From: Rhodanobacteraceae bacterium
GTDB lineage: Bacteria > Pseudomonadota > Gammaproteobacteria > Xanthomonadales > Rhodanobacteraceae
Direction: 5' to 3'
Length of the DNA stretch: 49,426 bases
NCBI GenBank assembly: GCA_016790075.1
Contig: JAEUPP010000061.1
Location: 72,225 to 121,650, forward strand
The notes under the pieces were generated by a model that did not search any database, was not told the origin of the DNA, and worked only from the letters and a program-made list of their open reading frames with translations. This document shows positions 40,560 to 49,426 of this stretch, piece by piece (the stretch's first letter is position 1; each line of letters begins with the position of its first letter). The translations under genes were made by a program, and so were the position numbers.

Positions 40560-41565
40560 GACAGTGCTCCAGCGCTGACCGTATGACCTCGATACCCGCG
40601 CCACTGCGGTGCGCGCGCTCGCTGAGCACGCGTCTGAAACCGCGCGCGCCTGGCAGCCCCTGATACAGGCCAAGCAAGTGCCGCGTGATGTGCTTGAGCG
40701 CCGTGCCCTGCGCGAGTTCAGCTTCGACATACGGCAGCAGCTTTTCGAGAATATCGCCCCGCTCCGGCAGCGCCTCACCGTACAACTGGTGCTCGACCCG
40801 GGCGAGCACATAGGGATCGTGGTATGCCGCACGCCCCAGCATGACACCGTCAATCTGACGCAGATGCTCCACCACCGCATCGGCGGTCGTGACACCGCCG
40901 TTGATGATGACACACAAATCCGGAAATTCCTTTTTCAACTCGTACACGCGCTGGTAGTTGAGCGGCGGAACCTCGCGGTTCTCCTTGGGCGACAGTCCCT
41001 TGAGCCAGGCCTTGCGCGCATGCACGATCAGCACGTCGACCCCGGCTGCAGTCATCTGCGCGGTGAAATGCTGCAGATCGTGGTAATCGTCCTGCTCGTC
41101 CACCCCGATGCGGCACTTCACCGTGACCGGAATTCGCACCGCCGCGCGCATCGCCGCCACGCAGTCGCCAACCAACGCCGGCTCACGCATCAGACAGGCA
41201 CCGAAACGCCCCGACTGCACGCGATCCGAAGGGCAGCCTACGTTGAGGTTGATCTCGACATAGCCCGCCTCCTCACCATAGCGAGCCGCCCGCGCCAGCT
41301 CCGCCGGCTCCGAGCCACCGAGCTGCAATGCCACCGGCTGCTCGAACGCGCTATGCCGCAGCAGCCGCGCACGATCGCCGTGCGCCAGCGCCGCTGACGT
41401 CACCATCTCCGTATACAGCCGTGCATGCGGCGCCAGCAGCCGATGAAAATAGCGGCAGTGCCGGTCGGTCCAGTCCATCATCGGGGCCACGCACAGGCGC
41501 CAGGGCTTGAAATTCGCGCCAGGTCCAGCAGCGAGCGCAACAGCAGAATGATCGGGCAAGGGCAT
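40537..41565 (-). CDS. dusA: tRNA-dihydrouridine(20/20a) synthase DusA
   Basis: A 342-aa FMN enzyme that reduces uridine 20/20a in tRNA D-loops. It shows CVAPMMDWTDRHCRYFHRLL at the N-terminus, NLNVGCPSDRVQSG with the catalytic Cys, VKCRIGVDEQDDY, VHARKAWLKGLSPKENRE and INGGVTTADAV. The start matches the family. The codons for MMDWTDR carry a 20-bp sequence that recurs at 49,161, where a second, truncated dusA 5' end occurs. The first ~36 codons and the leader here are thus probably derived from an integrated element. Confidence 0.96.
   Translation of the reverse strand: MPLPDHSAVALAAGPGANFKPWRLCVAPMMDWTDRHCRYFHRLLAPHARLYTEMVTSAALAHGDRARLLRHSAFEQPVALQLGGSEPAELARAARYGEEAGYVEINLNVGCPSDRVQSGRFGACLMREPALVGDCVAAMRAAVRIPVTVKCRIGVDEQDDYHDLQHFTAQMTAAGVDVLIVHARKAWLKGLSPKENREVPPLNYQRVYELKKEFPDLCVIINGGVTTADAVVEHLRQIDGVMLGRAAYHDPYVLARVEHQLYGEALPERGDILEKLLPYVEAELAQGTALKHITRHLLGLYQGLPGARGFRRVLSERAHRSGAGIEVIRSALEHCHAPAAAA
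41465..41484. other. Candidate attachment site (left, in dusA)
   Basis: TCGGTCCAGTCCATCATCGG lies inside dusA codons for M-M-D-W-T-D-R. The same 20 bp with one mismatch occur at 49,161-49,180, where dusA homology resumes. Known DusA-type integrases recombine at the 5' end of dusA, so this is the likely core. Confidence 0.7.
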
Positions 41566-41736
41566 GAAGGATGGTTAGCGCGGGCGCGCAACAGTCGGCG
41601 AATCAATAGCTTAATTCATCGCAACAAAGGCGGCCATGCCGAGCCACGATGCCCGACCATCATCAGGCTGCGGGCACACTGAAATCGTGCTGCCAATGAG
41701 GTCGCGCCACCCACAAACGCGTGACAAGAATGCGGC

Positions 41737-41982
41737 TCATTCCCCCTGTTCCCACCAATTGATGGTCACGCGCCAAGCCACGCTCGCCAACAGCAGGGAG
41801 ACCATCGCTCCCTCAGGAACCCCGATCGTAGTCGGTTGCGACCTCCCGTTATCCGCCACGCCCGCCACCAGCGTCTGCTCGATCAGGCGCAGCACACGTC
41901 GATCGGCTATTTGACGGTTCAACACGGCCAGTAGCTTTCGATGCTCGATACCGTCGAAACACGCTTCGATATTCGCGTCCAA
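41737..41982 (-). pseudogene. Group II intron reverse transcriptase/maturase fragment
   Basis: The 81-aa piece reads LDANIEACFDGIEHRKLLAV, then DRRVLRLIEQTLVAGV and GVPEGAMVSLLLASV. These are RT blocks as in maturases (normally LDADI-x-x-FFD-x-IDH and GTPQGG-x-SPLLAN). A TAA replaces the usual Tyr codon just before V-L-D-A. The 5' and 3' parts are missing, and the GTPQGG/SPLLAN motif is degenerate, so it is inactive. Confidence 0.8.
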
Positions 41983-42414
41983 TACTTAGCCGACTTTACG
42001 CTTGCGCTTCGCCGCACCTTGCACTCGGCTTCTTCACCACAAGAGCCACATCGGTGAATTTCGCAGTAGCGCGGCTATCACGTTTTACTAATTTTTACAG
42101 TTTCCAAAAGTTTCTATTAACAAACCAAAAATACAGGGTCACCTCCTCTCACTCCTGCAGCAGACCATTTGTCCAATAACCAAGGCAAGTGAACGTCGAC
42201 TTGTTCACAGTTCTTGCTGACGAGTCACTGGAACTGGCGTTGGCAGCCATACCCAGTAGTGCGGTCGCCACAACTAAAAGATGGTGGGAATACGGCGGCG
42301 AACTGGCAGATGCGGCATACACAACAGTGCTGATCCGGACCGCCGTTCGCTGGTCCAGCCATGGTCGTATCGTTGCTATAGCGTGACGCAAGTCGGAATT
42401 TTCCCGCTGACTGA

Positions 42415-42456
42415 GAAAAATTTTATGGCCAGCTGGAAAAATTTCATGGCCAGCTA
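42415..42456. repeat. 21-bp tandem repeat, possible IS21-type end
   Basis: Two adjacent 21-bp units (42415-42435 and 42436-42456) match at 19 positions; each has an A/T run followed by ATGGCCAGCT. Repeated units of this kind with TGGCCAGC lie in the ends of IS21-family elements; no transposase remains. Confidence 0.4.
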
Positions 42457-42653
42457 GAGATGTCGCTGCCTGAAGTAGCGCTTCATCGTCCGGCACGAGC
42501 TTGCATGCCACACCCTCAGGGTCTCGTAGTCTGGCGCGGGGGCGCCGATCGGGGATCCGCCGGGTGGACCGCCGCAACTCGCGTTATGCCGGCGCAAGCC
42601 GGCGCTCTTCTACCTTCGCACTAGTTCCTGTTGTCCATCAGGAGATCTATCCC

Positions 42654-48513: not shown

Positions 48514-48870
48514 TCATTTATCCGTCTTAAGTTTCTCCAGAAGCTTCTCCACATCTGCATCACTCATTGACTCGAACCGCCGGGCAAAAGCCACCGCCAG
48601 TTCTTTGGCACGGTCCGAACGGTCCCGCAGCGAAATTGACACTTCCTTTGCCTGTTGCGATGCAGCCTCACTCAAAGCTGCCTGATCTTCCGCCGTAAGC
48701 GACAACACAGCGACGATCTGGTTTAGCAAGCTCGGCGGAACCGCCTTCTTTCCTGTTTCAAGCGCCGAAACAAACGAAGGCGAGACCCCGAGCAAATCCC
48801 CGAGATCACCAAGCGTCTTATCGCGGTCGATGCGTATTTTTCTGAGAGCCTTTCCGAAGTTAGTCAGCAT
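48514..48870 (-). CDS. XRE-family repressor
   Basis: A 118-aa protein. The N-terminal HTH (about 5-60) includes RKIRIDRDKTLGDLGDLLGV and SPSFVSALETGKKAVPP. The C-terminal half (EDQAALSEAASQQAKEVSIS, SDADVEKLLEKLKTDK) is helical. It is transcribed with the ImmA/IrrE gene from the promoter at 48959-48987. GAGGGG about eight bases upstream supports the ATG. It is the probable cleavage target of that protease. Confidence 0.9.
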   Translation of the reverse strand: MLTNFGKALRKIRIDRDKTLGDLGDLLGVSPSFVSALETGKKAVPPSLLNQIVAVLSLTAEDQAALSEAASQQAKEVSISLRDRSDRAKELAVAFARRFESMSDADVEKLLEKLKTDK

Positions 48871-48958
48871 ATCGGTGCCCCTCTCTCTGCCATGAACCCT
48901 CTCTCGGTTGGTTGAGCTCGGAAGACCGCGTCGCTAGCGCGATTTCCGCCCAGTTCAA

Positions 48959-48987
48959 ATTGTAACCCACTCGGAACATTTTTTCAA
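48959..48987 (-). promoter_or_regulatory. Sigma70 promoter of the XRE-ImmA operon
   Basis: On the minus strand TTGAAA (48987-48982) and TACAAT (48964-48959) are 17 bp apart, near consensus. The leader would be about 80 nt. Just upstream of the -35 is a short AACC/GGTT inverted repeat that could be a repressor half-site pair. Confidence 0.7.
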
Positions 48988-49150
48988 CCTGTTGGTTCAA
49001 TTGCGTTTCACAAAAAACGCAGGCATGAGCGCTGCGTCCTCTCCTTGGACAACGGAACTGGCAAAAAGTTCCGTGATTGGCGCTTACGGGCCTGCGGGAG
49101 TGCTTAATTGGCCGGAATTTCTACTTCAACTATCTGATAAACAATGAATA

Positions 49151-49261
49151 TTATTCTCTATCGGTCCAATCCATCATCGGCACCACGCTCAGCCGCCTGG
49201 TCACGAAACGCACGCCAGATCCAGCGGCAAGCGCAACGACGAAATGATCAGACAAAGGCAT
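49151..49261 (-). pseudogene. Truncated duplicate of the dusA 5' end
   Basis: Reads 36 codons from ATG (MPLSDHFVVALAAGSGVRF, then SVVPMMDWTDRE) and a TAA. It aligns with the functional DusA start (MPLPDHSAVALAAGPGANF, then CVAPMMDWTDRH). Homology ends exactly at the M-M-D-W-T-D-R codons, the candidate recombination site. It is therefore a dusA 5' end cut off from its body by an insertion. Confidence 0.9.
49161..49180. other. Candidate attachment site (right)
   Basis: TCGGTCCAATCCATCATCGG differs at one base from the core in dusA at 41465-41484. It marks the right boundary of a 7.7-kb island. Confidence 0.7.
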
Positions 49262-49426
49262 GAAGGATCATTGGCCCAGACGCACAACAGTCGGCGAATC
49301 AATAGCTTAATTCATCGCAACAAAGGCAGCCATGCCAAGCCGCGCCGACCGGCTGCCAGCCCGCGGTGGATACACGGTACCCGCGAAGCCGAGACCGCGA
49401 AGCCCTTGTATTGCGGTTTGCACGTA

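Follow-up and report, generated by a model that had tools for sequence, protein, structure and literature searches.

A segment inserted in dusA of a Rhodanobacteraceae bacterium is very probably a decayed derivative of a dusA-specific integrative element

We analysed a 49,426-nucleotide stretch of DNA from a Rhodanobacteraceae bacterium (the window; C4:72225-121650 of a 5.62-Mb, 83-contig genome, G000), the right edge of which is the contig end at C4 121650. In this window a 7.7-kb segment is bounded on both sides by copies of the 5' end of dusA, and it is very probably a decayed derivative of a dusA-specific integrative element, resembling a cis-mobilizable element (CIME) as defined in PMC5704250. 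We assign it to the dusA-specific elements because of the duplication, the core shared by the two copies and a homologue of rdfN between them, and we regard it as a derivative rather than an autonomous member because an integrase is missing and its DHH phosphoesterase gene is partial. This kind of element is already known and its mechanism is published, and the island is mostly an ordinary relic. As described in PMC4482086, integrases of one family target a semi-conserved sequence of 21 bp within the dusA 5' end, and the inserted element provides a new dusA start. RdfN is the directionality factor of dusA-specific elements and is needed for their excision (PMC8409611).

The duplicated 5' end of dusA

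The dusA gene is intact and had a single match in the genome, and its product showed 76-86% amino acid identity to those of seven congeners, which together with G000 represented the genus with eight genomes. The closest named DusA relatives among the matches listed were from Rhodanobacter and Dyella. The leader in front of dusA (copy A) recurs as copy B at a spacing of 7696 bp, and the two align without gaps over 184 bp with 83% identity (32 of 184 positions differing; BLAST E 2e-47). They share the core CCGATGATGGA[C/T]TGGACCGA at 41465-41484 and 49161-49180. Past this core only 6 of 20 bases agree, which is the level expected by chance, and the homology ends there; in the other direction it reaches 83 bp upstream of the start codon. 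An earlier note on this DNA, made from the sequence alone, had described a second dusA start of 36 codons followed by a stop, a 20-bp core with one mismatch at the MMDWTDR codons where homology stops, and an island of about 7.7 kb inside dusA, at a target of a tyrosine integrase family. Translation, the copy alignment, the spacing of the copies with the rdfN/prtN homologue inside, and the site as described in PMC4482086 bear out each of these points. The extent it gave for the leader was right as to the duplication, and is corrected here to include the 83 bp upstream of the start codon.

Differences between copies A and B were unevenly distributed. The outer non-coding block carried 3 mismatches in 60 positions, the stretch next to the ATG 7 in 23 and the coding part outside the core 21 in 81, and the outer 60-bp block was more conserved than the coding part (Fisher p 0.001). 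The longest exact run was 43 bp (41589-41631 and 49285-49327). A GC-to-AT bias, as a sign of decay of copy B, was not significant (17 vs 8, p 0.11). The dusA frame is intact behind leader A, and a sigma-70-like scan listed no site in this leader.

A BLAST search of the genome found no third site besides the contig overlap described below, and a scan of the island that allowed up to 4 mismatches showed no core-like remnant between the junctions. The most conserved 21-mer of the leader had no exact match in IMG/VR or in GTDB r220, from both of which the window's own or very near genomes are possibly absent. When a 241-bp leader query was compared with 147 evenly drawn genomes of the family, in a leader and core search that scored five candidates per genome, foreign matches fell mainly in its first ~60 bases (the core region), with extra 22-29-bp matches at query positions 56-84 in six genomes, and none of these foreign matches extended into the non-coding sequence that precedes the ATG.

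The integrase search and related elements

No integrase was present between copies A and B in the list of open reading frames. PF00589 had 19 matches genome-wide, with none on C4 or on C82, a 56,550-bp contig of the same genome whose first 141 bp are identical to the end of the window. Searches for a dusA-type integrase found none in the island or on C82, and no match in the genome had the strength of a family member. The earlier note had likewise seen no integrase, and it had allowed for a larger array continuing to the right and for an integrase gene beyond position 49,426. Neither found support: C82 scanned over its whole 56.5 kb contained no further core at up to 4 mismatches, the BLAST search of the genome gave no third site, and on C82 neither a dusA-type integrase nor a PF00589 match was found. 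Of the two states proposed there, decayed or satellite, decay is our best reading, and a satellite-like state is possible.

Related elements that do carry an integrase, and whose anatomy is comparable, were found in both databases searched. IMG/VR contained 20 loci with a relative of the window's PrtN (the product of its rdfN/prtN homologue), and a dusA-type integrase lay in the fetched stretch of 10 of these (L083, L085-L093). One of them, L087, is a provirus joined to dusA with the order prtN, XRE, ImmA, integrase, dusA, and the window's XRE and ImmA proteins are 39% and 40% identical to the counterparts beside its integrase. The closest PrtN (68% identical) was in a 41.7-kb IMG/VR sequence (L077/G147), which has a core-like site with 3 mismatches 74 bp past prtN and, at its opposite end, a dusA-type integrase 33% identical to that of L087 over 353 aa (E 3e-59). 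In GTDB r220 we compared the best 80 of at least 571 dusA loci, a set that possibly leaves out the window's own or very near genomes. In at least 10 of them (L121, L130, L148, L152, L172, L176, L179, L183, L187 and L190) dusA was closely preceded by a dusA-type integrase gene in opposite orientation, a count that is a lower bound as some loci end at contig ends.

One of these relatives is in Dyella sp. S184 (L121, L214, L215; taken to be G135 of the family sample, which has an integrase identical to that of L121), which has an integrase beside dusA on one contig and, on another, an rdfN gene 67% identical to that of the window followed after 497 bp by the displaced dusA core. Unlike the window, this element retains its integrase and its leaders are not homologous to one another; it is seen on two contigs. 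The distance from prtN to the distal core was 74 bp in L077, 86 bp in L130 and 497 bp in Dyella S184, and the position of prtN thus varies among relatives.

Within the family sample, PrtN was detected at E 1e-6 in 5 of the 147 genomes, and all five had it beside dusA, at 0.5-4.5 kb from a dusA core: the window's genome, G005 (3.7 kb), G007 (0.8 kb), G009 (1.6 kb, with an internal stop in PrtN and the dusA core seen in L219) and Dyella S184 (497 bp, from the displaced core). The Dyella integrase matched 25 of the 147 genomes at E 1e-15, and none of the eight genomes of the genus. It lay ~200 bp from a dusA core in seven (G135, G021, G123, G083, G075, G011 and G093), was broken near the core in G014 and was a fragment there in G118. 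Strong matches in G022 and G042 came with no core match in the five-candidate search, and the other 14 were weak (E 1e-27 to 1e-17) and away from the cores found. Because rdfN stood beside dusA in five of five genomes and this integrase was undetected at E 1e-15 in four of them (G000, G005, G007 and G009), rdfN may mark hidden dusA islands.

The island shares with the dusA-specific islands and prophages described in PMC4482086 the 5' dusA target at the conserved ~21-bp site, semi-conserved direct repeats, a presumably replaced dusA start, prtN (reported in 60 of 94 islands) and mosaic cargo. Unlike those islands, it lacks the tyrosine integrase, described there as the only universal gene, and its leaders are mutually homologous; its size is 7.7 kb, against 4.8-184.8 kb reported for them. 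It resembles IMEVchUSA3 and related elements, as described in PMC8409611, in its PF11112 rdfN and presumed new dusA N-terminus, and differs in having no recognised integrase or mobilisation gene and in placing rdfN 3 kb from the distal junction. As in a CIME (PMC5704250), both att-like junctions are retained and the integration genes appear to be lost. Unlike a CIME as defined there, it would have a phage-like parent, judging from the PHROG matches, and not an integrative and conjugative or integrative and mobilizable element. Mobilisation of the island in cis after accretion would be hypothetical.

Origin of the island

We propose that an element with a tyrosine integrase recognising the ~20-bp MMDWTD site recombined into dusA. 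From then on the element's own leader (copy A) would have provided dusA with its start and upstream sequence, and the former host start (copy B) would have been displaced by 7.7 kb. The integrase and most of the element body would have been lost later, leaving a partial DHH gene beside unrelated DNA (the reverse-transcriptase fragment and the trypsin gene), and the two junctions would have remained, together with the rdfN and XRE-ImmA-protease operons. The GC content, which is lower at 46.2-49.2 kb (52-56%) than at 36.0-41.4 kb (61-70%), is in favour of this history. The island would now be immobile unless a matching integrase were supplied in trans.

Several observations weigh against this reconstruction. 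Neither an empty site of the same species nor a conspecific genome was found, and for this reason we can only infer the insertion and the later deletion; an empty-site alignment with the seven congeners was uninformative, as their leaders differ from those of the window. The upstream leader and flank were common only to G006 and G003, with G007 and G002 weakly alike in the leader. Homology between the A and B leaders spans ~190 bp and takes in non-coding DNA, as in one (G087) of four comparison pairs: similarity past the core region, measured by alignment against 200 shuffles, reached z 65 for the window and z 13 for G087, and the pairs from Dyella S184, L130 and G014 scored within the range of the shuffles. 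A simple foreign leader does not neatly fit this result. The published mechanism implies that dusA starts with element-supplied DNA, as the earlier note had proposed, yet because the leaders are homologous the foreign origin of leader A cannot be demonstrated. The likeness of the leaders could stem from earlier spread of the element among close relatives, from an origin of both leaders in related elements, or from homogenisation of, or constraint on, the conserved 60-bp block. In addition, the window has 3025 bp between rdfN and the distal core, against 74-497 bp in three relatives, and in the ten IMG/VR loci with an integrase prtN adjoins that gene, within 2 kb, so its place is not fixed. The L087 integrase weakly matches C19 (E 1e-8, 33% over 130 aa) and C13 (E 0.004), which we take to be other tyrosine recombinases. 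The join of C4 to C82 depends on the 141-bp contig overlap, and the right flank is rearranged: the block at C82 1399-7412 lies upstream of dusA in inverted orientation in two congeners, at ~14 kb in G006 and ~7 kb in G004.

The homologous leaders, the shift in GC content near 46 kb and the 3 kb between rdfN and the distal core, against less than 0.5 kb in three relatives, could also be explained by accretion of two elements, with the leaders from related elements, the left (rdfN operon) and right (XRE-ImmA-SDH) parts of different origin and the inner junction lost. Tandem elements at dusA are on record (PMC8409611). However, no inner core remnant was present at up to 4 mismatches in the island or on C82, and the accessory genes could be plain cargo, and we consider this history unlikely. 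It is unlikely, too, that the island is an integrase-less passenger (a CIME or satellite) whose cores and rdfN were kept since co-infecting dusA-specific phages or islands moved it in trans. The cores differ by a single base, rdfN is an open frame, four of the five rdfN-bearing genomes gave no match to the Dyella integrase, and G087 has two cores with no integrase there. On the other hand, divergent integrases were possibly missed, no acting integrase is known in this genome, there is no sign of movement, the partial DHH gene and reverse-transcriptase fragment look decayed, and the rdfN of G009 has a stop. Very improbable is an origin with no integrase at all, in which the dusA 5' end was duplicated locally, for instance through a transposition or in the course of an inversion, and other DNA was inserted between the two copies. 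The copies do resemble sequences of the same lineage, and G004 and G006 have a different arrangement of the region, but the point where homology stops coincides with the published integrase target and a homologue of the cognate directionality factor lies between the copies, a joint coincidence that is unlikely.

A wider reading, which we consider quite doubtful, is that integrase-less dusA cassettes are a recurrent class, represented by the window, G087 and tentatively G005, with both cores, sometimes rdfN, a same-lineage leader and, just inside the distal core, a regulator-led accessory operon that the displaced host dusA promoter could drive, and moved in trans by dusA-targeting phage integrases. 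The recognised gene nearest the distal core points away from the core into the island in the window, G087, G005 and G014, as would transcription from the displaced dusA promoter, and in Dyella S184, L130 and L077 the nearest gene is rdfN, in the opposite orientation. With few cases, this is a lead only. Against the promoter part of this reading, a sigma-70-like site at 48987-48959, between the core and the XRE gene, suggests that the XRE operon may have its own promoter. Should such cassettes be mobile in trans, dusA could be a site for the spread of accessory genes that bring no recognisable recombinase with them.

Under the preferred reading of a decayed element, loss of the integrase has left in place the two junctions, the directionality-factor gene and one accessory operon, in a group for which no conspecific genome was at hand. 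Even when no integrase is left, an integration site can be recognised from a duplicated gene start.

Other features of the island and its flanks

Table 1. Features of the dusA locus and the island, in window coordinates
Feature	Position	Strand	Basis or remark
dusA coding sequence, intact, 342 aa	40537..41565	-	first ~33 codons in the core or on its element side
Core, dusA-side junction, 20 bp	41465..41484	-	copy alignment
Leader copy A: dusA 5' end and upstream non-coding DNA, presumed element-supplied	41465..41648	-	
Reverse-transcriptase fragment	41737..41982	-	phrog_1423 E 6.7e-12; RVT_1 below cut-off
Trypsin-like serine protease with C-terminal extension	42645..43781	+	profile search
200-aa protein, no Pfam or PHROG match	44180..44782	-	profile search
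Phage-type DHH phosphoesterase	44945..45445	+	phrog_4771 E 2.3e-56, profile positions 126-290 of 363 only
Small helix-turn-helix-like protein (weak match)	45442..45660	+	
Small open reading frame, 77 aa, co-oriented	45657..45890	+	
rdfN/prtN homologue	45887..46135	+	PF11112 E 7.9e-13; phrog_1300 'excisionase' E 5.4e-18
Inverted repeat with A/T runs, terminator-like, between convergent operons	46167..46199	.	by eye; absent from the scan list
SDH-type ClpP-like serine protease	46385..47401	-	phrog_21683 E 2.7e-93; PF01972
ImmA/IrrE-type metalloprotease	47968..48501	-	PF06114
XRE-type regulator	48514..48870	-	PF13560
Truncated dusA' frame, 36 codons then stop (start at 49261)	49151..49261	-	translation
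Core, distal junction, 20 bp, one mismatch	49161..49180	-	copy alignment
Leader copy B: presumed displaced host dusA 5' end, joined to chromosome	49161..49344	-	
141 bp identical to the start of C82 (assembly overlap)	49286..49426	.	

The first gene of C82 encodes a GyrB-like ATPase, and the open reading frames of its first 20 kb look chromosomal. Blocks of C82 match the congeners G006 and G004. The island is thus flanked by chromosomal DNA on both sides and stands beside a rearrangement breakpoint. The GyrB-like gene (C82:224-1249, L005) adjoins leader B here, whereas in G006 some 100 kb separate it from dusA. The break between the contigs, at 49286, falls one base inside the longest exact run between the leaders, as if the assembler had met an alternative branch there. 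We do not claim that this break reflects cells or strains with a recombined leader, as an exact A/B hybrid would break at 49285 and the other branch is not visible.

The window contained no tRNA genes, and an Rfam search of 41300-49426 gave three matches at E up to 1, each under its gathering score. The SDH, ImmA/IrrE and XRE genes are convergent with the genes on the rdfN side. The DHH gene appears to be 5'-truncated and is a possible deletion endpoint. The seven congeners had no match to the trypsin-like protease at E 1e-20 or to the 200-aa protein at E 1e-6. A pattern-based scan of IMG/VR found no relatives of the SDH protease; in phages it had two records, the best 50.6% identical over 67% of the query. 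The XRE-ImmA pair (47968-48870) matched several PADLOC models, capH (39.7 bits) and capP (50.5 bits) among them, and the SDH-type protease that follows it had no PADLOC match, with no defence effector recognised.

In G087 (L217 3980-5629) a stretch of 1.6 kb separates two cores. Judged by eye, it contains an XRE gene and a nucleotidyltransferase-like gene of AbiE-like type, with no integrase, and a restriction-helicase-like gene comes next. G005 (L019 2386-11331) is a candidate integrase-less dusA island, with a tentative, degenerate core (3 mismatches) at 11312, 8.9 kb upstream of dusA. It encodes a PrtN homologue and HipA-like, DUF3037, HNH and GmrSD_N-like proteins, with a PADLOC candidate pair, PDC-M66A/B. 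In the window, two adjacent 21-bp direct repeats, 90% identical, lie at 42415-42456, upstream of the trypsin gene.

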